This document shows, piece by piece, positions 1-11,742 of a stretch of 64,000 nucleotides of DNA (its first letter is position 1; each line of letters opens with the position of its first letter). Both the position numbers and the translations under genes were made by a program. This stretch comes from Pseudomonadota bacterium. GTDB lineage: Bacteria > Pseudomonadota > Gammaproteobacteria > Steroidobacterales > Steroidobacteraceae. The stretch is taken from positions 62,001 through 126,000 of the forward strand of contig JAJZUT010000006.1 in the NCBI GenBank assembly GCA_021847105.1, in the 5' to 3' direction. Below the pieces are notes generated by a model, which was not told the origin of the DNA, did not search any database, and was given only the letters and a program-made list of their open reading frames with translations.

Positions 1-773
1 TCATAGGTGATGAACAGCGCCCGTCCGCTGTGCTCGTCGGCAACGCTCTCGTCCATTACCGGATCGTGCATGACATCAAAAAAGCGCTTGGTGCGCCGTA
101 CCGTGTAATGGCCCTGCGGGTCGACGTCCGCCACTGCGAGCGATCCATCGGCGCACAGAGAGGCAAAGCCGCGCTTGCCGAAGGGAAACACCAGCCCACA
201 GCCGGGGACTTCGACCGACGTCAGCACCTTGCGGGCATGCAGGTCGATCACGCTGACGGCGGGCGCCGGTTGAAAGCTGTAGACGTATCCGTAATGCCCA
301 TCCGGACTCAGCGCGAAGGTGTGCGTCTTTGGATCGGAGATCAACCGGCCCGGCAGCGCAATCTCGCCCTCGTTCGCAAGCGTCGGCCCCCCGTATATCG
401 ACAGCACATCTTCGCGCTTGCCCCGATTGCCCAACGTCCAATAGGTCTCCGAGATGTACAGCGTGCGGTCATCCGGTGCCCAGGCAAAATTCGCGTATTG
501 CGACGAGTACACGGTCGCTACATCTTGCAGCGTATCCCCATTTATGATGCGCACACCCCCGCCCTCGAGCCCGTCCATCGCGCTGTAGCTGAGGTCGTGG
601 GCGGTGAGTCCGTTGAACGCGGTCACGCCCGCCATCTCGCTCTGCAGCACGGGCGGGGTGTGCGTCGGCGGTGTCAGCGCAGCGCCCCAGGCCGGCATGG
701 CCAGTCCCGCGCCGACCAGCAGCACCAGCGCGGCGCCGGCTGCGATACCCGTTCGGTATGCGATTCGCTTCAT
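1..773 (-). CDS. Amine dehydrogenase heavy (beta-propeller) chain, 3' end outside the window
   Basis: Partial gene: 257 codons are visible and it continues past the left edge. The N-terminus is a Sec-type signal peptide (MKRIAYR, then an Ala/Leu/Val-rich stretch ending near AWGA), so the product is periplasmic. The rest resembles the heavy chain of tryptophan-tryptophylquinone amine dehydrogenases (MauB/AauB, family Me-amine-dh_H): a motif like FQPAPAVSVIDL followed by a VPGC...F and LCADGSLAVADV segment matches the conserved propeller blades of that family. In that family the heavy chain pairs with a small quinone-bearing light chain and passes electrons to a cupredoxin or cytochrome. Its ATG lies one base after the stop of the spermidine dehydrogenase gene, so the two are almost certainly translationally coupled. 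No light chain (MauA) gene is visible; it would have to lie left of the window. Assignment to the family is fairly firm, the substrate is unknown. Confidence 0.8.
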   Translation of the reverse strand, partial: MKRIAYRTGIAAGAALVLLVGAGLAMPAWGAALTPPTHTPPVLQSEMAGVTAFNGLTAHDLSYSAMDGLEGGGVRIINGDTLQDVATVYSSQYANFAWAPDDRTLYISETYWTLGNRGKREDVLSIYGGPTLANEGEIALPGRLISDPKTHTFALSPDGHYGYVYSFQPAPAVSVIDLHARKVLTSVEVPGCGLVFPFGKRGFASLCADGSLAVADVDPQGHYTVRRTKRFFDVMHDPVMDESVADEHSGRALFITY

Positions 774-774
774 A

Positions 775-2865
775 TTACGCCCCCTGAGTATTATGGGACA
801 CAAACGGATAGGCCAGTTTCTCCAGCGCCTGCTCGACCGCCCAGTGCGCCGTGAGGAATGCCGCATCGGTGTGCGGACTCATGGCCGCATCTGCATTGGC
901 GACTGAAATGCGTCCGAAGGGCTGCCGGGCCGTGACGCAGGAGCGCTTGTCGGTCTCGGTGAATACCCAGTCCATCGGATCCTCCAGGCTGCTGTACGTG
1001 TACGAATAACCATGACACCAGCGATTGACCATGATGCCAAGGACGTCCTTGCGCGGATCGAAGCCACCGGATCCGAGAACGCGCACGAGCTGCTCACGGA
1101 TGTTCCGCTCGAAAGTCTCAAACGACGTGCTCATCAGCTCCGCCCGGCCCATGGTGTATTGCGCCTTGCGCGGGTGCCCTGGAAAAGTCGGATAGCGCGT
1201 CATGGAAAGCGCGATCGGATCGCGGGGATGGGCCGAGTGGCGCAACGCGCCGAGGTCCACCGGCTCTGGAAGCCAGAACCGGTCGTGATACATCGTTGGC
1301 GTGACTACGGTGCTGATACCGAGTCTCTCGAATGCCTTCCAGTTGCGCAGGAACACCGTCGTGTACACGATCGGCGCCTTGATGTTGTACGCCAAGGCTT
1401 CCTTTTGCGTCTTGGGCAGCTCTGGGACGAGATATGGAATCATCATGTTCCAGTTGGCCATGATGCAGTAGCACGCCCGAACGTCGTAGAGCTTCCCGCT
1501 TGCGCTCGCCGAGGGGCTGTACGACACGATGACCTCGCGAGCCGTGGCCGGATCCCCGTCGTGACGAACATTGAGTACCGTATGGTTGAGACGGATGCGG
1601 GTCGAGTTTCCTGGACGATCGAATAGCGAATAATCGACGCGCGCCATGCCGACGTCCTCTTGCGTCGAGCCGGGTACCGCGGCGGGAATCAGCTTGCGGA
1701 CCAGCAGCCGCACCAATGTTGCATTGCCGTCTGGGAAATGCACGTCACCGTGCCCTGGGCGCTGGCGCCCGTGCATGCCACCGGGCAGGTCCGCCAGCAG
1801 GCCGCGCGGCAGTGGATCGAGCTTCAAGCCATAGAAGCCGGGCAGGCTGCCCATGCCCCAGGCAAACAATGCCGGCAGCACGTCCGCGCCCGTGCCGAAT
1901 ACGCTGCGTCCGAGATTGCGATAAAACCAGTAGGCCTGCGGGTCGAGCTTGACCACTTTGAGCAAGTAGTCCTCGAAGCTCATGCGCGCCAGCTGCTCGA
2001 GCTTCTGCGCCTGTGTCAGCCCCCGCAAGTAGTCCGGTTGCGCCGGATCCTGCAGGCGCTTCAGATCCTGTTTCGCCTGTTCGGACAGCGGCATTTCGCG
2101 CAGGAATTCATCGGTGAAGCGCGGCTGGGGGTCGCCGAGGACGTTACCCGGCAGGTCACCTGAACCGCGCGGCTGCACAACCAGCCGGTCGGCGCCCCAG
2201 GTCTCGCGGTCGAAGAAATAGCTGCGCCGCAGCCCCATCGAAGCATACAGGCGCTCATTGCTCGCGTTGTCGCGAACGTAGCGTGACAGATCGACGCCGA
2301 TGTCCTGCAGCACCTCGCGGGCCCACTGGTTGTAGCGCTCCGGAGACTCGATGTCATAGGTGCCACCATTGACCACGAGGGTGTCACCGCCGTAGTGGAA
2401 CTCATTGCGCCGCGCGTGTCCACCGACGTCATCGTTGTTATCGATGATCAACACCCGAGCGCCGGGACCGACGTTCTTGTGGAAGAAATGCGCTGCGGCA
2501 AGACCGCTCAACCCGCCCCCGACCACAACGAGGTCATAGTGCTCCCCAGTATGCTCAGCGCGGCCAAGATCGACCTTACGCGTGTCGCGCAGGTGGTGTG
2601 CCGCGGTGTAGGAGCCCGGAGCGAGGCCGCGCAACCCGGTGCGCATCGGTGGATAGGGATAGGTCTCATCCGGTGTCGCAACGGTTGCGGGTGCGGGACG
2701 GTCCGCGTTGTCCGCCGCAAGCCCCACATCCGGCAGGGCAAGGGTTCCGGCCACCATGGCCACGCCATTGAGGAAGTCGCGACGTGAAATGTCTCGGTCC
2801 ATGCCAAGAGCGTGATCGCCGTCCGATGCCACCGGCCCGCAGCGCTGCTCAGGATCTTTCTTCAC
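775..2865 (-). CDS. spdH: Spermidine dehydrogenase-like FAD enzyme, Tat-exported
   Basis: About 696 residues. A twin-arginine signal (SRRDFLNGVAMVAG, RR at about 28-29) precedes a FAD Rossmann motif VVVGGGLSGLAAAHFF at about 113-130 and an NNDDVGGHARRNEF segment. The overall pattern, including the leader LGMDRDISRRDF, matches Pseudomonas SpdH, which oxidatively cleaves spermidine in the periplasm to 1,3-diaminopropane and 4-aminobutanal. Start: a GTG at 2865 has GGAGAT a few bases upstream; a TTG at 2889 and an ATG at 2802 are alternatives, but the ATG would cut residues commonly present ahead of the Tat motif. The gene follows the permease by 68 bases and is followed after one base by the amine dehydrogenase heavy chain, suggesting that both act on amines or on the released products in the periplasm. 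Substrate is inferred from homology. Confidence 0.85.
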   Translation of the reverse strand: MKKDPEQRCGPVASDGDHALGMDRDISRRDFLNGVAMVAGTLALPDVGLAADNADRPAPATVATPDETYPYPPMRTGLRGLAPGSYTAAHHLRDTRKVDLGRAEHTGEHYDLVVVGGGLSGLAAAHFFHKNVGPGARVLIIDNNDDVGGHARRNEFHYGGDTLVVNGGTYDIESPERYNQWAREVLQDIGVDLSRYVRDNASNERLYASMGLRRSYFFDRETWGADRLVVQPRGSGDLPGNVLGDPQPRFTDEFLREMPLSEQAKQDLKRLQDPAQPDYLRGLTQAQKLEQLARMSFEDYLLKVVKLDPQAYWFYRNLGRSVFGTGADVLPALFAWGMGSLPGFYGLKLDPLPRGLLADLPGGMHGRQRPGHGDVHFPDGNATLVRLLVRKLIPAAVPGSTQEDVGMARVDYSLFDRPGNSTRIRLNHTVLNVRHDGDPATAREVIVSYSPSASASGKLYDVRACYCIMANWNMMIPYLVPELPKTQKEALAYNIKAPIVYTTVFLRNWKAFERLGISTVVTPTMYHDRFWLPEPVDLGALRHSAHPRDPIALSMTRYPTFPGHPRKAQYTMGRAELMSTSFETFERNIREQLVRVLGSGGFDPRKDVLGIMVNRWCHGYSYTYSSLEDPMDWVFTETDKRSCVTARQPFGRISVANADAAMSPHTDAAFLTAHWAVEQALEKLAYPFVSHNTQGA

Positions 2866-2933
2866 GAGATCTCCACTGTCGAGTTTCAATCATCGCGCTC
2901 GACGGCGCTATTCGCTGCGCCGGTTTGCGAAGC

Positions 2934-3836
2934 TCAAACGCTATCCTTCACCCCGCCACCCTCGGCACGGGCCGCCGCCGCTTCACGCTGCGCCGAGCGC
3001 AGCATGGCGAGCGCAGCATAGGTCACCACTGCCGCGACCAGCCAGCGCAGGGCTCGCAGCGGCAGACTCTTGACGATGAACGCCGCGATCAGGACTCCGA
3101 GTACGCCCGCCGTAGCGATGCCGACCGACGGCCCCCAGGCAAAACGTCCGCTGCGCAGGAACCTCACGCCGGCCGCGGGCAGCATGACGCCACCGGAGCC
3201 CATCATGATTGGGAAGGCAGCGCGCAGATTGAAACCGAGCAGCGCCAAAATCACCATGGTCGGCGCATACCAACCGATGCCGATCGTCGAGAGCGCGCCC
3301 AGCACGAAATTCGTGGCCACCGCGGCTACAAACTTCCAGCCGGTGAGCGAAAGTGCCGCACCACCAACCGGGAAACTGCCAAGGTTACCCATCACGAAGA
3401 AGGCGGCGGCAACCAGCAGCGCGGCCCCCATGAGCACCTGGATCGAGCGGCGCCGCATGCGGCTCACAACACCGGCTCCGAGCCAAGCGCCGGCGGTGGC
3501 ACTCGCCACCATGGCGAGCAGGAGCTTCGGATCGACCGTGATCAGGGTGACGAAGATGATCGTTTCGGCGATGCCGACCGAGACACTGCCAACGGTCAGG
3601 GTACCGGGGATGAGTTCATCACTCGGTCGGCCGCGGAACTTGTACAGCGCGGTGGTCGTGGCATAGGAGCCAATGCCGAGTGCATCGCCGAAGTTAGTCA
3701 GAAACCCGATACCGAGATCTGACCAGCTCGGCCGTTCGCGCAATTCCCGGCGACGCGACAGCGCGAACCACTGCACGAAGAACAGCGCACTCAGGATCGC
3801 GATCAGCGCGAACAATACGATCTCCGGGATGCTCAT
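2934..3836 (-). CDS. TauE/SafE (TSUP) family membrane permease
   Basis: A 300-residue, very hydrophobic protein with about eight membrane helices in two related halves, each carrying the glycine-rich loop seen in the TSUP family (GIGSYATTTALYKFRG in the first half, GIGWYAPTMVILALLG in the second). Family members export or import small organic and sulfur anions such as sulfoacetate, sulfite or carboxylates. The ATG overlaps the stop of the upstream FAD oxidoreductase (ATGA), so it is in the same operon. A reasonable guess is transport of an acid derived from amine oxidation, but nothing in the sequence fixes the substrate. Confidence 0.8.
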   Translation of the reverse strand: MSIPEIVLFALIAILSALFFVQWFALSRRRELRERPSWSDLGIGFLTNFGDALGIGSYATTTALYKFRGRPSDELIPGTLTVGSVSVGIAETIIFVTLITVDPKLLLAMVASATAGAWLGAGVVSRMRRRSIQVLMGAALLVAAAFFVMGNLGSFPVGGAALSLTGWKFVAAVATNFVLGALSTIGIGWYAPTMVILALLGFNLRAAFPIMMGSGGVMLPAAGVRFLRSGRFAWGPSVGIATAGVLGVLIAAFIVKSLPLRALRWLVAAVVTYAALAMLRSAQREAAAARAEGGGVKDSV

Positions 3837-5158
3837 CCGCCCCCCGGCGCGCGTCCGATCGAGCGATCGAGCGCATCACGAGTCTGTAGGTAGCGTATGG
3901 CGGCGCGTGCCGCCATGCGACTGAAGCCGTGCAGGCGGATGGGTCGGACGGGGGTCAGCGGAAAGCCGAGACTCTCGGCCGGCTCGCCGAGTGCCCGACG
4001 TGCCAGCACTCGCCCAAGGGTGGTCGCCATGGCGACACCACGGCCGTTATAGCCTAGGCCCGCCAGCAGTCCCGGCTCTGGCTCATGCAGGTGTGGAATT
4101 CCATCGCGAGTCATCGCCACGAATCCACCCCATCGATATTCGATTGGCACGCCGGCGAGTTCCGGATAGAGCTCGCGCAGCGCCCGCTCATGGGTCGGGG
4201 TGTTCGCCGGAGACGGAATGTCGGTGTACGCGCCGCGCGTGCCAAGTACAAACCGTCCGGAAGCATCGAGCCTGAAGTAGCGCAGAATTCTCTGCGTATC
4301 CGAAACCGATTGCCCGTGCGGCAGAATGCGTGTACGTAGCTCCGTTGGCAGCGGTGCACTTGCCACCTGGATCGACGGAACGGCGACCACCGTGCGCCTG
4401 AGTTGATCGAAAACGCGATCGGTGTAGGCATCAGTGGCGACGATGACGGTTTGCGCGGCAACCGCGCCGCGCTCGGTGTCAATGCGCCAGATCCCGCCCT
4501 GGCGGGCCAAGCGTCTCGCCGGACTGCGCGCAAACAGACGCACCCCATGCCCCTGACAGGCTCTCGTCAGACCGCGCAGGTAAGCCAGCGGCTGCACGGT
4601 GCCACCGCGACGGTCTATCCAGCCCCCACAGTAACGCGCCGTACCAGTGAGTTCCGCTGCATCGCGGGCCGAGAGCACCGCGACATCGGCGCCACGACTA
4701 CGCCATTGCGCCGCCCGCCGTTCCAGCCCCGGCAGCTGAGTCTCGCTGACCGCGAGCTGCAACCAGCCGGTGCGCACCGCGTCGCATTCGATCCCATATT
4801 GCTTAATCAGATCGAAGACCAGGTCCGGTGCGGAACCCGCGCAAGCCGCAAGCTGTGCGCCCGCCTGTTCGCCGTAAAGGCGCTCGAGTGCATCGGGGTC
4901 ATGCTTCAGACCGGCGATCACCTGTCCGCCGTTCAGTCCCGAGCCGCCCTCGCCGATTTCGCCGGCTTCGAGCACGAGGACGTCGCGGCCGGCACTGGCC
5001 GCATGTAGCGCCGCGGACAAGCCCGTGTAGCCCGCGCCGATCACCGCGATTTCGGCGCGCGCTTCTGTCCCGAGTTGCGGCAGCGGCGCCAAGGGCGCGC
5101 AACTCGACATCCAGAGCGAGCCGGTCGTCGATGCCACGCTGACGTGCCCCCTGCTCAT
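3833..5158 (-). CDS. FAD-dependent amine oxidoreductase (DAO/PuuB-like)
   Basis: 441 residues, no signal peptide, so cytoplasmic. A classic dinucleotide-binding motif (AVIGAGYTGLSAALHAASAG, about 38-57) is followed by VLVLEAGEIGEGGSGLNGG, where the S/N-GG signature of gamma-glutamylputrescine oxidase (PuuB) and related DAO enzymes is present. A C-terminal GLGYNGRGVAMATTLGR motif is the usual second FAD contact of this group. The family oxidises primary or secondary amines using oxygen. Being first in the run FAD oxidoreductase-permease-spdH-heavy chain strongly suggests polyamine or amine catabolism. A 9-bp inverted repeat sits 5 to 29 bases upstream of the ATG. Substrate not determinable. 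Confidence 0.8.
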   Translation of the reverse strand: MSRGHVSVASTTGSLWMSSCAPLAPLPQLGTEARAEIAVIGAGYTGLSAALHAASAGRDVLVLEAGEIGEGGSGLNGGQVIAGLKHDPDALERLYGEQAGAQLAACAGSAPDLVFDLIKQYGIECDAVRTGWLQLAVSETQLPGLERRAAQWRSRGADVAVLSARDAAELTGTARYCGGWIDRRGGTVQPLAYLRGLTRACQGHGVRLFARSPARRLARQGGIWRIDTERGAVAAQTVIVATDAYTDRVFDQLRRTVVAVPSIQVASAPLPTELRTRILPHGQSVSDTQRILRYFRLDASGRFVLGTRGAYTDIPSPANTPTHERALRELYPELAGVPIEYRWGGFVAMTRDGIPHLHEPEPGLLAGLGYNGRGVAMATTLGRVLARRALGEPAESLGFPLTPVRPIRLHGFSRMAARAAIRYLQTRDALDRSIGRAPGGG

Positions 5159-5162
5159 ATTG

Positions 5163-5187
5163 TTTATTGATTATCGATATCAATAAA
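5163..5187 (-). promoter_or_regulatory. Inverted repeat, probable operator in front of the amine-oxidation operon
   Basis: Perfect 9-bp arms, TTTATTGAT (5163-5171) and ATCAATAAA (5179-5187), separated by 7 bases (TATCGAT). It is strikingly AT-rich against the GC-rich surroundings and ends five bases before the FAD oxidoreductase start. A dyad of this size and position is typical of a repressor site that would cover the 5' end of the message; a role as an mRNA hairpin sequestering the start is an alternative. Confidence 0.55.
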
Positions 5188-5352
5188 TCGAACCATGAGC
5201 GAGCATAGGCCAGCCTCCGAGCAACGTCAATGCGAACCGGGACTCCCCCTGGAGCCCGTTCGTTGGCGCATGGCGAAGACCCGACTCAGCACGGACCTTC
5301 GCGACACGACGTAAGAGTTATCCCAGAGGCGCACCGACCGGGATCGTCGGCG

Positions 5353-5373
5353 CTGGCTGAGGCGCTCAGCCAG
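5353..5373 (-). terminator. Hairpin over the mauD stop codon, terminator-like
   Basis: CTGGCTGAG (5353-5361) and CTCAGCCAG (5365-5373) form a 9-bp perfect stem with a 3-base loop. The mauD stop codon lies inside it. No T-run follows on the minus strand, so it is either a weak attenuator between mauED and the downstream amine operon or a 3'-end stabiliser. Confidence 0.35.
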
Positions 5374-5962
5374 AAGATGCCGCGCGCTGCCGGGCGAGAT
5401 AGTCCTGTACCGATCGCAGCCCGAGCTCATGCGCCGAGATCAGGCTCTCCAGATGCTCGCGGCTGTTGACCAGGCCCTGCGCGGCGATGACGCCGAGTTC
5501 GTTGACGAGCACCGCATACGGCAGCTTGGCGACCTGGAATGCGCGACCGGCCTCGGGTGCATTCACAAACCGCTCGAGTGCGACATCATGGCGTGCCGCC
5601 ATCTGCCGCTGCTGCTGCAGATCGCCGTCTCCCACCAGGAGCAGATCAAGATGCTCGCTTTGCGCGAACGCCTTGACGGTGGGCAGGAGCGACTTGCAGA
5701 TGGGGCAGGTCGGGGAGACAAAAAAGAGCAGCCGCAGTGCGCCGCCGGGCTGCGGGCCGCCGATCTCGAGCGCATCGCCCGCGAGCGTGCGCACAGTGAG
5801 CCTCGGTGCCGCCTCTCCCGTCTGCGGTCCACGTCCGAGCGCGAGCGCGCCCACCGGAGCGATGCGCTCGTGCAATACACCGACCTGACGGGCCAACGCC
5901 AACACCGCAATTGCCAGCGCAATGACGGCAACCCACAGCATCACTTGGGAAATGAGCAGCAT
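5366..5962 (-). CDS. mauD: Methylamine utilization protein MauD-like thiol-disulfide protein
   Basis: 198 residues. An N-terminal membrane anchor (LISQVMLWVAVIALAIAVL) is followed by a thioredoxin-like periplasmic domain with a CPIC active site (Cys86, Cys89) in the context FFVSPTCPICKSLLPTV, as in MauD. MauD is thought to form or shuffle the many disulfides of the quinone-bearing light chain of methylamine or aromatic amine dehydrogenase. The start was placed at the ATG that overlaps the mauE stop (TGATG); the upstream reading frame is inside mauE. In known mau/aau clusters the order is B-E-D-A. Here E-D are separated from the heavy chain by four genes, which is unusual. Confidence 0.85.
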   Translation of the reverse strand: MLLISQVMLWVAVIALAIAVLALARQVGVLHERIAPVGALALGRGPQTGEAAPRLTVRTLAGDALEIGGPQPGGALRLLFFVSPTCPICKSLLPTVKAFAQSEHLDLLLVGDGDLQQQRQMAARHDVALERFVNAPEAGRAFQVAKLPYAVLVNELGVIAAQGLVNSREHLESLISAHELGLRSVQDYLARQRAASSG

Positions 5963-6504
5963 CACGCAAACCTCTTGCGAAGCTCCGCCGTGGATTGGCG
6001 CAGCGAAAGCAGCTGATCGAACGTCCGGTACAGCCCGTAAGCGGCCAACCCCGCGCCGACCCCGTCGACCCACTGCAGCGGTCCGCCCCAAGCGGAGGTC
6101 GCGGCGAACAAGGGCGATAGGGCAAGGGCGAGTACCAGATTGCGGACAAGCAGGCCCGGGCTCAACGATTGACGCAATCCTGACTGAAAGCATCCGCAGT
6201 CAATCTCGCGCCGCCCGCGGACCAGATTGATGCCCATCGCCAGTGCAAAACCACACAGCAGCGCGATCGCGAGCGCCGCGCCACTGCGGGCATACAGCCC
6301 GGTCGCCAAGGACACCGTCACCAGCGACTCCAGGCCGACCACCAACCACGCCATGGACGCGGCCAGCGGTTCCGGAACCAGCCGATAATTGACCACCACG
6401 CCTGCCAATTCGTGGCGATGTGCGAGCTTGCCCGCCACTGCGGTCAGGAACACCAGCGCGCCCAGCAGGCGGCTGGCCAACGCGATGGACGGATCGATCG
6501 TCAC
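5962..6504 (-). CDS. mauE: Methylamine utilization protein MauE-like (DoxX-like) membrane protein
   Basis: 180 residues, about four membrane helices. It contains the CGCF motif (REIDCGCFQSGLRQ) characteristic of MauE, thought to cooperate with MauD in disulfide formation or electron delivery to the periplasm. The start chosen is a GTG at 6504 with GGGGAG about seven bases upstream; this gives the usual MauE length and begins just before the first helix. The longer open frame upstream is low-complexity and has no protein character. Overlaps mauD by one base. A strong hairpin sits directly ahead of the ribosome binding site. Confidence 0.82.
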   Translation of the reverse strand: MTIDPSIALASRLLGALVFLTAVAGKLAHRHELAGVVVNYRLVPEPLAASMAWLVVGLESLVTVSLATGLYARSGAALAIALLCGFALAMGINLVRGRREIDCGCFQSGLRQSLSPGLLVRNLVLALALSPLFAATSAWGGPLQWVDGVGAGLAAYGLYRTFDQLLSLRQSTAELRKRFA

Positions 6505-7191: not shown

Positions 7192-8274
7192 ATGGAATCC
7201 TGTCTGGGCGCCCTTCTTCCTTTGCTGTCGCGCGAGCGTGCTGCCGGACGCGCCGTCGCACTTGCAGTCCTGACGCAGACGACAGGCTCCACCTACCAGA
7301 GGCCCGGAGCTCTGCTGCTGATCGCCGCGAACGGGGAGTATGCCGGGTTAATCTCCGGCGGCTGCCTCGAGGGCGACCTGGCCGAACAGGCTCGCGCGGT
7401 CATTCACTCTGGCGAGGCGCGCGAGATCGTCTATGACCTGCGCGACCCGAACGATCTGGTGTGGGGGATCGGCTCGGGCTGCGAGGGGGCGATGCGCATT
7501 CTGCTGCTGCGGGTGGGGCCACAGGAGCGCTGGCAACCGCTGGCTCATCTGACGGAATCCCTCGCCTCTCATTCCCCGACCGCGATTGCGCTCGTCGCCG
7601 CATCTACCGATGAGCGCGTTGCACTCGGCTCAGTCGCATTGCCCGAGGAGCCGACCACGCACTGGCTCACGGAGCCGGCCCGTGCGGCGCTCGCGGCGGC
7701 GAGCCGCGCGCACGAGCCCAGCTGGTTCGACCTGTCCGCGCGCTACCGCCTTTTTCTGCTGCCGCTCGCGCTGCCGCCGCGACTGCTCGTGCTCGGCGCC
7801 GGACCCGACGCCGCGCCGCTAGCCCGCCTGGCGGGGGAGCTGCGCTGGAAAGTGACACTTGCCGATCATCGCGCCGCCCTGGCGATACCAGCGCGCTTTC
7901 CGACAGCGGAGCGGGTGGTCGAAACACGCCCGGAATCGCTACATGCGGTCGTGGATTTAACGGCCTTCGATGCCGCCGTCATCATGACGCACCAGCTGGA
8001 GATGGATCGTGCCTACCTGCGCGTGCTGGCCGAGAGCGCGTTGCCCTACATCGGGCTGCTCGGCCCGCCGGCACGCGCGGCGCGTTTGCTAGCGGAGCTC
8101 GGCGAGCAGGCGAGCATGCTGCACGGCCGGCTGCGCGCGCCCGTCGGCTTGCACCTCGGCGGTCGTTCACCGGAGGCGATTGCGGTAGCCATCGTGGCCG
8201 AGATCCTCGCGTTCCTGAACGGGCGATTGCCGATTGCCGCACCGTTTGCGCCCATCGTACCGGGCGCGCCATGA
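7192..8274 (+). CDS. XdhC/CoxI family molybdenum-hydroxylase maturation protein
   Basis: 360 residues. The N-terminal XdhC_CoxI domain carries the SGGCLEGDLAE signature (about 54-64) and the C-terminal half is an XdhC Rossmann domain with LLVLGAGPDAAPLARLA (about 198-214). XdhC proteins bind molybdenum cofactor, promote its sulfuration and insert it into xanthine-dehydrogenase-like enzymes. It is the first gene of a four-gene operon, and its stop overlaps the start of the cytidylyltransferase gene (ATGA). The client is almost certainly the iorAB-type enzyme downstream. Confidence 0.88.
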   Translation: MESCLGALLPLLSRERAAGRAVALAVLTQTTGSTYQRPGALLLIAANGEYAGLISGGCLEGDLAEQARAVIHSGEAREIVYDLRDPNDLVWGIGSGCEGAMRILLLRVGPQERWQPLAHLTESLASHSPTAIALVAASTDERVALGSVALPEEPTTHWLTEPARAALAAASRAHEPSWFDLSARYRLFLLPLALPPRLLVLGAGPDAAPLARLAGELRWKVTLADHRAALAIPARFPTAERVVETRPESLHAVVDLTAFDAAVIMTHQLEMDRAYLRVLAESALPYIGLLGPPARAARLLAELGEQASMLHGRLRAPVGLHLGGRSPEAIAVAIVAEILAFLNGRLPIAAPFAPIVPGAP

Positions 8275-8870
8275 ACAGGTCTGCAGGAGAGCTGCACGCA
8301 CTCGTTCTCGCGGCCGGCGCCGCGCGGCGCTTTGGCGCTGTAAAGCAGCTCGCGCAGATCGACGGCGAGCCGCTGCTGCGGCGAGTCATCAGGTGCGCAG
8401 CCCCGGCGGCAGAACGTACCTGGGTCATCCTCGGGGCCCACGCCCGCGAAATCGAGCCGCTCCTTACCCGATCGCCGGTGACCACATACTTCAATATGCT
8501 GTGGCACGAGGGGATCTCCAGCTCGATCCGCGCCGGCATCGAACTGCTGCCGCACTCCTGCACGGCGGTGATGTTAGTTCTCGCCGATCAACCCCTCATC
8601 CGCACGCTCGATTACACTCGGCTCGCGCAGGCGTGGCGCGCGGCGCCGACCACGATCGTTGCCGCTGGCTACGGAACCCATGCGGGGGCGCCCGCGATCT
8701 TCCCGCGCCGATTCTTCTCCGAACTGCAGCAGCTGAAAGGCGATGTGGGAGCGAAGTCCCTTCTGCAGCAACATGCCGCTGCTTTACATACGGTGCCGAT
8801 GCCGAGGGCCAGCTTCGATGTCGACACGCCGGCAGATCTTGCCGCCGCGCCAGACTCCACCATCGACTGA
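8271..8870 (+). CDS. mocA: Molybdenum cofactor cytidylyltransferase (MocA-like)
   Basis: 199 residues. NTP-transferase fold with the signature LVLAAGAARRFGAVKQLA (about 10-27), a variant of the LAAGxSxRxGxxK loop, and VLADQPLI (about 103-110), matching MobA/MocA-type nucleotidyltransferases. MocA converts molybdopterin cofactor to the cytosine dinucleotide form used by xanthine-oxidase family enzymes. Position between xdhC and the hydroxylase subunits supports MocA over the guanylyl enzyme MobA. Translationally coupled to xdhC. Confidence 0.85.
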   Translation: MNRSAGELHALVLAAGAARRFGAVKQLAQIDGEPLLRRVIRCAAPAAERTWVILGAHAREIEPLLTRSPVTTYFNMLWHEGISSSIRAGIELLPHSCTAVMLVLADQPLIRTLDYTRLAQAWRAAPTTIVAAGYGTHAGAPAIFPRRFFSELQQLKGDVGAKSLLQQHAAALHTVPMPRASFDVDTPADLAAAPDSTID

Positions 8871-9007
8871 GGCTGAGCAAGCAGTATCGTCAGGCGGCGC
8901 AACCTGTTGCAGCCACGTTACGGCTGACCGCGTTGAGCGGATCTCCTATACTTTTGCTTCGCGAACGCCGGCCGTCGTTCGACGGCGCCACTGAAGCGGA
9001 GGCGCTC

Positions 9008-9493
9008 ATGAGATTCTCCATTCTGGTCAATGGCATCCGGCACGAGGTCCAGGCCGATGCGGACACGCCACTGCTGTGGGTTCTGCGCGACGAGCTGCAT
9101 CTGGTCGGTACCAAGTTTGGCTGTGGAATTGCGGCGTGCGGGGCGTGCACGGTGCACCTGAATGGCGAGCCAGCACGCGCGTGCGTCACGCCGATCTCGG
9201 CAGTCGGCACGGCTGCGATCGTGACCATCGAGGGAATCGGCGCCAGCGAGTGGGGACGCAGGATCAAGAGGGCCTGGCTCGAGCTCGACGTGATGCAGTG
9301 CGGCTACTGCCAAGCCGGCCAAGTCATGTCCGCCACCGCGCTGCTGAGCAAGAATCCTCATCCGAGCGATCAGGACATCGACGCGGCGATGAACGGCAAC
9401 ATCTGTCGCTGCTGCACGTACACCCGCATCCGGGCGGCGATCAAGCAGGCTGCCGGCCTGCCGACCGCAGACACGCGCGAGGTGAGATCATGA
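9008..9493 (+). CDS. iorA: (2Fe-2S) subunit of an isoquinoline 1-oxidoreductase-like molybdenum hydroxylase
   Basis: 161 residues. The N-terminal plant-type ferredoxin domain has the cysteine set GCGIAACGACTVH with a later Cys near 60, and the C-terminal helical [2Fe-2S] domain has QCGYCQAGQ and NICRCCTYTRIR. This two-cluster layout is that of the small subunit of IorAB, aldehyde dehydrogenase and similar two-subunit xanthine-oxidase family enzymes, which lack a separate FAD subunit. It transfers electrons from the molybdenum site to a cytochrome or quinone partner. Start is the ATG at 9008, matching the family N-terminus. The stop overlaps the large-subunit start. Confidence 0.9.
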   Translation: MRFSILVNGIRHEVQADADTPLLWVLRDELHLVGTKFGCGIAACGACTVHLNGEPARACVTPISAVGTAAIVTIEGIGASEWGRRIKRAWLELDVMQCGYCQAGQVMSATALLSKNPHPSDQDIDAAMNGNICRCCTYTRIRAAIKQAAGLPTADTREVRS

Positions 9494-11742
9494 GCGGCGA
9501 GACCTCCGCAGACGATCCCCGGGCGGCGCCCGGGGGATTGCGCATCTCACGGCGCGCCTTTCTCGCGGCGGGCATTGCACTCGGTGGCGGGTTATTGCTG
9601 ACGCTGCGATTCAGCGAGAGCGCCTCGGCGGAAGATGCCCTGATCGGCGCCTACGTCAAGATCGCTCCCGACGGGATCGTCACCATCACCGCCAAGAATC
9701 CCGAGATCGGTCAAGGTATGAAAACCACCTTGCCGATGCTGATCGCCGATGAGCTCGATGTCGACTGGCAGAACGTGCGCGTCGAGCAGGCCATGCTTAA
9801 TTCGATCTATGGCCCGCAGTTTGCCGGCGGCAGCCTCGGCACGCCGCTCAATTGGATTCCCATGCAACAGGTCGGCGCGGCCGCACGCCAGATGCTGATC
9901 AGCGCCGCAGCCAGTGCTTGGGCCGTCCCGGCGGCACAGTGCGTGGCCAGCCGAGGAGTAGTCCGGCACCCCCCGAGTGGCCGCCAACTGACCTACGGTG
10001 CACTGTCGGAGAGGGCGGCAGCGCAGCCCGCACCGGACCTTGCGTCCGTGACGCTCAAAAAGCCCAGCGAGTACACCATCATCGGGAAATTCACCGGCGG
10101 GGTCGACAGCGCACGCGTGCTCGATGGCGCACCGCTGTTCGGCATCGACGTGTCGCTGCCGCAGATGAGTTATGCAGTCTACGAGAAATCCCCGGTGTTC
10201 GGCGGGCGCGTGGTGCGCGCGAACCTTGCGGAAATCAAGGCGCTGCCCGGGGTGCGCGAGGCGTTCATCCTGCGCGGCGCCAGCGCCGACGCGGCAGTGA
10301 AAATGGGATTGGTCGATGGCGTTGCGATCATCGCGGACAAGTGGTGGGATGCCCAGAAAGCGCTTGAGAAGCTGCGCGTCGAGTGGTCGCCGAACAGCGC
10401 GCCGTCGCAGAGCACGTCCGGGTTCGAACAGCAGGCCGCTCAACTTGCGCGCGAGGCACCTCATGCGATCATCCGCCGCGACGGGGATGTCGCCGCGGCG
10501 CTGCGTGGCGCAGCGAGGCGCCTGGAAGCCTCCTATGCGTACCCATTCCTTGCCCACGCGACGCTCGAGCCGCAGAATTGCACGGCGCGAGTCAATCGCG
10601 ACGGCAGCGTTGAGATCTGGGCACCGACACAGAACCCTGGCCCCGGAGCACAGCTGGTCGCGCGCACCCTCGGCATCGACGCCGCGAGGATCCGCGTGCA
10701 CATGACCCGGGTGGGCGGTGGCTTCGGCAGGCGGTTGAACAATGATTACATGGCCGAAGCGGCCATGATCGCCCGATGGCTTGGACGGCCGGTGAAGCTG
10801 CTCTGGAACCGGCCGCAGGACATCCAGCACGATGCGTACCGGCCGGGCGGGTTCCACCAGTTCGTCGCGGGTCTCGATGCCGCGGGCAAGCCGATCGCAT
10901 TTCGCGATCACTTCATCACGTTCGGCCAGCAGGGACATGTTGCCTCCTCCGCCGACCTGCCGCGGGATCATTTCCCGGCGGGCTTCGTGCCGAACCTCGA
11001 ATACGCGCAATCGCTCATCGAGCTCGATGTACCCACCGGCCCGATGCGCAACCCCGGTGGCAACGCCCTGGCATTTGCGTTCGAGTCATTCCTCGACGAG
11101 ATGGCCTACGCCGCAGGCCGTGATCCGCTCGCCCTGCGGCTCGAGCTGTACGGCCCACCACGGATCCTGCCGGCTCCACCGGCGCGCGTCGGACTGAAAA
11201 TTCCGCCGTTCGATACCCGCCGGGTGCGCGGCGTACTCGAGCTCGTGGCAGAGAAGTCCGGCTGGGCGCAACGCCACGCGTTACCGCGCGGAACAGGGAT
11301 GGGGCTCGCGTTCTACTACAGCCATCTCGGCTACGTGGCCGAAGTAGTCAAGGCAAGCGTCAACCCCGACGGGGTTCCACAGATACACAAGATATGGGCC
11401 GCCGTCGATATCGGTCGGCAGATCATCAATCCCGCTGGAGCGTTCAATCAGGCGCAAGGCGCGATCCTCGACGGGCTTGGGCAGGCCCTGCACCTGTTCA
11501 TCACGATCGAGAACGGGCGGGTCGTGCAGCGCAACTTCGATGCCTACCGTCTGCTTCGCATGCACGAGGCGCCGCCGCTCGAAGTGCACTTCTTGCGCAG
11601 CAACAACGATCCAACCGGTCTCGGCGAGCCGGCGCTGCCTCCGGTGCTGCCAGCGCTGTGCAATGCGTTGTTCATGGCCACCGGCAAACGTATCCGCACG
11701 CTGCCCATTGACCCCCAGGCGCTGCGTCGCAGTGCCGCCTGA
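9490..11742 (+). CDS. iorB: Molybdenum-binding large subunit of an isoquinoline 1-oxidoreductase/aldehyde oxidase-like enzyme
   Basis: 750 residues. A twin-arginine motif (RISRRAFLAAGIALGGG, about 17-33) suggests Tat export of the assembled complex, with the small subunit carried along. The body has two xanthine-oxidase family molybdopterin regions with NPEIGQGMKTTLPM, GGGFGRRLNNDY and GLGEPALPPVLPAL motifs, the last including the Glu expected to act as catalytic base. Homologues hydroxylate N-heterocycles such as isoquinoline or oxidise aldehydes in the periplasm. Because the neighbouring locus oxidises amines to aldehydes, aldehyde oxidation is an attractive role, but this is inference. Overlaps iorA by ATGA. 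Confidence 0.88.
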   Translation: MSGETSADDPRAAPGGLRISRRAFLAAGIALGGGLLLTLRFSESASAEDALIGAYVKIAPDGIVTITAKNPEIGQGMKTTLPMLIADELDVDWQNVRVEQAMLNSIYGPQFAGGSLGTPLNWIPMQQVGAAARQMLISAAASAWAVPAAQCVASRGVVRHPPSGRQLTYGALSERAAAQPAPDLASVTLKKPSEYTIIGKFTGGVDSARVLDGAPLFGIDVSLPQMSYAVYEKSPVFGGRVVRANLAEIKALPGVREAFILRGASADAAVKMGLVDGVAIIADKWWDAQKALEKLRVEWSPNSAPSQSTSGFEQQAAQLAREAPHAIIRRDGDVAAALRGAARRLEASYAYPFLAHATLEPQNCTARVNRDGSVEIWAPTQNPGPGAQLVARTLGIDAARIRVHMTRVGGGFGRRLNNDYMAEAAMIARWLGRPVKLLWNRPQDIQHDAYRPGGFHQFVAGLDAAGKPIAFRDHFITFGQQGHVASSADLPRDHFPAGFVPNLEYAQSLIELDVPTGPMRNPGGNALAFAFESFLDEMAYAAGRDPLALRLELYGPPRILPAPPARVGLKIPPFDTRRVRGVLELVAEKSGWAQRHALPRGTGMGLAFYYSHLGYVAEVVKASVNPDGVPQIHKIWAAVDIGRQIINPAGAFNQAQGAILDGLGQALHLFITIENGRVVQRNFDAYRLLRMHEAPPLEVHFLRSNNDPTGLGEPALPPVLPALCNALFMATGKRIRTLPIDPQALRRSAA

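Follow-up and report, generated by a model that had tools for sequence, protein, structure and literature searches.

The closest described relatives of the locus analyzed here are the mau cluster of Paracoccus and the aau cluster of Alcaligenes faecalis, which encode TTQ amine dehydrogenases of the methylamine dehydrogenase (MADH) and AADH types, respectively. The aau cluster reportedly has no mauG and carries a gene for a monohaem cytochrome c after aauA, as does our locus, and the electron acceptor of the A. faecalis enzyme is azurin. Asp32 of the light chain is thought to be necessary for TTQ formation. The flavoproteins QhpG, LodB and GoxB are required for the cofactor CTQ (PMC7876137). 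For the spermidine dehydrogenase of Pseudomonas (PaSpdH), the haem-b ligands have been named (PMC12564564), and Asp282 and Tyr443 are the residues mutated by the authors of PDB entries 7d9i and 7d9j.

Gene content of the locus

The window, which is the whole stretch of 64,000 nucleotides that was analyzed, corresponds to positions 62001-126000 of contig C38 in a 4.02-Mb draft genome that is 88% complete. Positions to the left of the window are given in the coordinates of locus L002, in which the L002 position equals the window position + 10000. A preliminary description had placed a Tat-exported SpdH-like flavoenzyme one base from an amine dehydrogenase heavy chain, and mauE-mauD upstream behind an FAD oxidoreductase and a permease. 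Gene calling and profile searches confirmed both arrangements and found all five of these genes, and the permease, open and intact on the minus strand. The features, in the order of transcription of the minus-strand genes, were as follows.

5962-6504, minus strand: mauE, light-chain membrane maturation partner, GTG start (PF07291 MauE, 2.5e-23)
5366-5962, minus strand: mauD, light-chain thioredoxin-like maturation protein (TIGR02661 MauD, 189.7 bits; cut-off 188.6)
5202-5230, minus strand: predicted promoter TTGACG-17-TATGCT, conserved in the clade
5166-5190, minus strand: predicted operator CGATTTATTGATATCGATAATCAAT, conserved, with a related site upstream of iclR
3833-5158, minus strand: FAD-dependent amine/amino-acid oxidoreductase of the DAO family, predicted first gene of the unit (PF01266, 9.4e-68)
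2934-3836, minus strand: tauE, TauE/SafE-family permease (PF01925, 5.4e-14)
775-2802, minus strand: SpdH-like flavocytochrome with FAD and haem b, carrying the Tat motif SRRDFLNG (match to spermidine dehydrogenase in PDB, E=1.8e-130, 43% identity)
1-773 and on to L002 9571, minus strand: mauB, putative TTQ amine dehydrogenase heavy chain, 400 aa (PF06433, 3.7e-36)
L002 9036-9569, minus strand: mauA, light chain (PF02975, 8.4e-52; TIGR02659, 209.3; cut-off 196.85)
L002 8395-9039, minus strand: monohaem cytochrome c, barely matching Pfam (0.016, below cut-off)
L002 7913-8383, minus strand: iorA, 2Fe-2S small subunit
L002 5610-7916, minus strand: iorB, MoCoBD molybdenum subunit, Tat motif TRRTVLKG
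L002 3320-5482, minus strand: PQQ-type dehydrogenase with a C-terminal cytochrome domain (below family cut-off)
ending at L002 3290, plus strand: further cytochrome c
L002 1841-2758, plus strand: iclR, regulator

The genes are tightly packed. The mauD ATG overlaps the mauE stop codon, the tauE start overlaps the DAO stop codon, and a single base separates the spdH stop codon (777-775) from the mauB start codon (773-771) and again mauB, which runs past the left edge of the window, from mauA; the mauA-cytochrome c junction is likewise one base or an overlap. The Cys-rich light chain with a Tat motif that had been predicted to the left of position 1 was therefore present and adjoined a complete heavy-chain gene of the expected propeller family, and the c-type cytochrome sought there was found directly after mauA. 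The MauG and the cupredoxin that had also been looked for did not occur among the scanned neighboring genes.

The DAO-family protein was nearest to the NCBIfam model for L-pipecolate oxidase, below its cut-off, and its PDB matches to glycine oxidase were weak. The PQQ-type dehydrogenase gene after iorB was also present in L132 and was absent from most kindred loci. On the strand opposite to the mau genes, positions 7192-11742 of the window hold a second molybdenum hydroxylase cluster with XdhC, MocA-like, 2Fe-2S and IorB-like genes. This cluster was rejected as part of the unit, since searches of the kindred loci yielded no relative of XdhC or MocA, and its IorB-like protein matched there only the IorB already identified (37-39%).

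Occurrence and gene order of related clusters

A profile survey detected mauA in 79 of 296 genomes of the order. Heavy- and light-chain genes were adjacent in 46 of the 81 loci found in these genomes and were arranged B-E-D-A in 34, so that the arrangement presented in the preliminary description as apparently undescribed is indeed non-canonical but is not a one-off. Among named relatives, mostly Sphingomonadales, the B-E-D-A order was found in 66/80 loci, and iorAB genes were near mauA in 33 of the 80; both features occur together in the cultured Sphingomonas oleivorans FW-11 (L136). The gene set and order of the window were shared by 12 clusters in related Gammaproteobacteria, namely its own and eleven further loci. 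Searches of the open-access literature returned no description of a cluster combining a TTQ enzyme with SpdH or with IorAB.

Predicted promoter, operator and regulator

The promoter TTGACG-17-TATGCT and the operator CGATTN7ATCGATAATCAAT were located directly before DAO in all nine clusters that were readable at this position, with the operator 11-14 bases past the promoter. The first hexamer was invariant, the second was TATGCT in eight clusters and TATCCT in L133, and the operator of L125 was weaker. Because promoter and operator are conserved before DAO in each of these clusters, the genes from DAO to iorB (FAD oxidase-tauE-[spdH]-mauB-mauA-cytochrome c-iorA-iorB) are predicted probably to form one transcription unit. 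In L133, a 3.2-kb insertion with a transposase-like end (approximately 3317-6480) lies between mauD and the DAO promoter and leaves promoter and operator untouched.

A scan of the whole genome for the operator, allowing ≤3 mismatches, returned three matches, all on the source contig, and none for the reversed control. The matches were located before DAO, just upstream of iclR, and inside DAO, the last of which is probably due to chance. Operators upstream of iclR, with 3-4 mismatches, were found in our locus and in L125, L132, L133, L134 and L153, and none was found in L128 at up to four mismatches. Related operators also occurred between DAO and mauB in the AADH-type clusters L043, L052, L056, L067 and L073. 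In each of nine congeners with mau genes, an operator match was found at the DAO/TTQ cluster and the best matches were near-unique in the genome, with matches elsewhere in two; of the congeners without mauA, two had no match and one had a single match with two mismatches. The position of iclR suggests that the IclR-family protein binds this operator and probably controls the unit.

The predicted TTQ amine dehydrogenase

MauA keeps Asp32, Trp57, Asp76, Trp108 and Tyr119 (MADH numbering), with Ser in place of Thr122, and Trp57, Trp108 and Asp76 were present in 162/162 light-chain homologues; the D105 position was too variable to be used. Together with the PF06433 propeller of MauB and the nearby MauE and MauD, these residues place the predicted enzyme in the TTQ amine dehydrogenase (MADH/AADH) superfamily. 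MauB matched the MADH heavy chain in PDB at 2e-29 and scored 129.9 bits, far below the 454.45 cut-off of the TIGR02658 MADH equivalog; its sequence is that of a clear but distant relative of the MADH heavy chain. This score, and the want of a MauG gene nearby, set the predicted enzyme apart from methylamine dehydrogenase proper.

In a light-chain tree, which with 109 columns is indicative only, the clade of the window (12 loci, 98%) branched beside sphingomonad enzymes on the MADH side. The AADH reference clustered with 21 further loci from the order (99%). The light chain of our locus was thus placed in a clade separate from A. faecalis AADH (97% and 99% SH-aLRT). MauA carries an extra cysteine pair, which is also present in AADH and is absent from P. 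denitrificans MADH.

Asp32 was replaced by Gly or Ser in mauA of L075, L078, L080, L089, L093, L095-L098, L100, L103, L113 and L114. These loci are mostly of one lineage, and eight of them also have an SpdH-family gene nearby.

Maturation in the absence of a nearby mauG

A MauG-family gene was near mauA in only two (L104 and L108) of the 161 surveyed loci, and the other 159 had no such gene nearby; MauG, which the preliminary description counted among the canonical neighbors, is therefore not a partner that our locus has lost. None was found among the scanned neighbors of our locus, and the single CCP_MauG match in the genome was closest to BthA (246 bits), followed by MauG (141 bits). A MauG hidden elsewhere was therefore rejected, within the limits that a draft of this completeness sets to any absence. 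Since this sole MauG-family protein is closest to BthA, the TTQ cofactor in the predicted enzyme is not assured. Five further genomes (G164, G213, G279, G106 and G243) contain mauA and gave no CCP_MauG match, an absence that is strong but not final in drafts 90-98% complete.

A cytochrome c gene directly followed mauA in 157/161 loci. It is conceivable, if rather improbable, that MADH-side TTQ enzymes mature without MauG through a factor that accompanies the cluster, for which the monohaem cytochrome c after mauA would be the best-placed candidate; a role as the physiological electron acceptor is simpler. QhpG as a shared maturase was rejected as a general answer, as qhp genes were found in only 14 of the 79 mauA genomes. 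The compact, conserved clusters and the five genomes with mauAB and no CCP_MauG match allow MauG-free TTQ formation to be tested.

The SpdH-like gene

The SpdH-like protein has an FAD domain and both haem-b histidines of Pseudomonas SpdH (His54 and His562), as expected of a spermidine dehydrogenase. In the alignment, it also keeps Tyr443 and has Ser at the position of Asp282, so that only one of the two mutated residues is conserved. In phylogenetic analysis, PaSpdH grouped with a paralogue in the source genome (L224; 100% SH-aLRT), and the cluster protein formed a separate subfamily; by its sequence, the cluster gene is not an orthologue of PaSpdH. The PaSpdH-type orthologue of this genome (C38:39370-41223, within L225 15361-17247 or C38:39361-41247), with Asp at position 282, lies about 22 kb from the cluster gene, tail to tail with qhpG beside the qhp cluster.

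The state of spdH could be judged in 11 of the 12 clusters, L130 being cut by a contig end. The gene was intact before mauB in our locus, L127 and L131, intact but located after iorB in L153, and decayed to remnants directly before mauB in L129, L132 and L134 (L127 and L132 are from the same MAG); no trace of it was found in L125, L126, L128 and L133. Consequently spdH is an accessory gene of this cluster type, intact in four clusters in two positions, decayed in three and absent from four. Because the remnants keep the tail of spdH that holds the mauB ribosome-binding region, the spdH-mauB arrangement probably came first and disappeared on more than one occasion. The view that polyamine enzymes had been inserted into a mau cluster was not supported, given the subfamily of the protein, the change at Asp282 and the decay or absence of the gene in 7/11 judgeable clusters. 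The adjacency of spdH and a heavy-chain gene was seen in three clusters, our own included, with three decayed copies in the same place, but was limited to the clade of the window and was rejected as a general rule.

SpdH-family genes were found within approximately 9 kb of mauA in 14/81 loci, compared with about 2 expected (Poisson 9e-8, kinship making the strength of this association an upper bound), and fell into a few lineages. SpdH-family matches, many of them weak, occurred in 211/296 genomes of the order. No substrate should be assigned to this common family of flavocytochromes from the label "spermidine dehydrogenase".

Proposed function and alternative explanations

The reading that we infer from these genes, and regard as likely, is that of one amine-utilization operon with a periplasmic TTQ-dependent chain from primary amine through aldehyde to acid, supplied in some clusters by the SpdH-like enzyme. 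FAD oxidase, tauE, spdH-like (where present), mauB, mauA, cytochrome c, iorA and iorB would be read from the conserved promoter, with mauE-mauD just upstream of it, under the control of the IclR protein encoded at the far end of the cluster. MauB and MauA would form a periplasmic TTQ amine dehydrogenase that oxidizes a primary amine to aldehyde and ammonia and passes electrons to a c-type cytochrome, the product of the neighboring gene being the simplest choice, and IorAB, a Tat-exported 2Fe-2S/molybdenum oxidoreductase assigned to aldehydes by family only, would convert the aldehyde to the carboxylic acid. The SpdH-like flavocytochrome, where present, may split secondary (N-substituted) amines into a primary amine and an aldehyde, thus feeding the other two enzymes, and a further step or the transport of the same compounds may fall to the permease and the cytoplasmic FAD oxidase. 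Counting against this reading are the low heavy-chain score, the BthA-like character of the sole MauG-family protein, the draft state of the genome and the cytochrome c, which hardly matches Pfam, so that its role as electron acceptor is a guess. In such an operon, a single conserved promoter and operator would link a TTQ amine dehydrogenase with an FAD oxidase, a molybdenum aldehyde oxidoreductase and an IclR regulator.

A TTQ locus with light chain, cytochrome c and Tat motifs on the SpdH-like protein, MauA and IorB, as expected of a periplasmic system, was thus borne out. The polyamine role proposed in the preliminary description is possible; the particular route, periplasmic cleavage of spermidine or spermine by the SpdH-like enzyme followed by oxidation of the released diamine by the TTQ enzyme, appears unlikely. 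The identity to Pseudomonas SpdH with conserved haem ligands and Tyr443, the over-representation of SpdH-family genes near mauA, and 1,3-diaminopropane as the product of PaSpdH (PMC12564564) are in its favor, and the cluster spdH has diverged in step with its neighbors (71% to L153, compared with 71% for DAO and 73% for mauB), which suggests an old association. It is opposed by the Ser at position 282, by the location of the true PaSpdH orthologue at the qhp genes, by the persistence of mauAB where spdH is decayed or lost, and by the wide distribution of the family, whose name does not fix the substrate.

Somewhat better placed, though still doubtful, is an operon for primary amines that are aromatic or long-chain, in the manner of A. 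faecalis AADH, with spdH as a passenger or an enzyme for a separate substrate. Within the genus, AADH-type TTQ clusters also have this DAO-tauE pair and this operator, spdH was repeatedly lost, the extra cysteine pair is shared with AADH, and MADH "GGFLPN" aligns with "SSQYAN", so that the Phe55 gate appears to be missing; the light-chain tree nevertheless places the clade on the MADH side, and a recent passenger would not be expected to have diverged in step with the cluster, as spdH has. The SpdH-like flavocytochrome adjoins a TTQ enzyme without MauG and might be imagined as a maturase replacing it, as flavoproteins act for CTQ, but this is extremely improbable and close to refuted: clusters without spdH keep intact mauAB, and searches of G164 gave no CCP_MauG match and no SpdH-family gene (best match 7e-4).

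Comparison with known systems

The predicted operon resembles the Paracoccus mau cluster in its MauB and MauA subunits, TTQ residues, MauE and MauD, in a light chain above the TIGR02659 cut-off and in its position on the MADH side of the tree. It differs in gene order (B-A adjacent with E-D upstream, compared with B-E-D-A), in having no MauG, in having a cytochrome c rather than a cupredoxin next door, in a heavy chain below the TIGR02658 cut-off, in the extra cysteine pair and in the DAO, tauE and iorAB genes of the operon. With A. faecalis aau it shares that cysteine pair, whereas its light chain belongs to another clade, its gene order differs and its unit includes iorAB, DAO and tauE. The SpdH-like protein is like PaSpdH (PDB 7d9f-7d9j) in FAD fold, Tat motif, His54, His562, Tyr443 and 43% identity, but has Ser in place of Asp282, belongs to a different subfamily and is optional in an amine dehydrogenase operon.

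A complete qhp cluster was located at L003 1296-10162 (C38:41296-50162), with QhpG, QhpE, QhpB, QhpC, QhpD and QhpA above cut-offs and an ABC exporter, and its gamma gene lies 14.7 kb from mauA. Sixteen of the 296 genomes had qhp, and 14 of these also carried mauA (Fisher 3e-7, which ignores kinship), and only here were both on one contig. The CTQ enzyme is likewise a tryptophylquinone amine dehydrogenase, although its subunits and its maturation (radical SAM QhpD, QhpG and QhpE) are unrelated.

Finally, the IorAB pair is like other IorAB and xanthine-oxidase-family aldehyde oxidoreductases in combining a small 2Fe-2S subunit with a molybdenum subunit exported by Tat, and differs from them in its apparent physical link, as judged from gene order, to a TTQ amine dehydrogenase.
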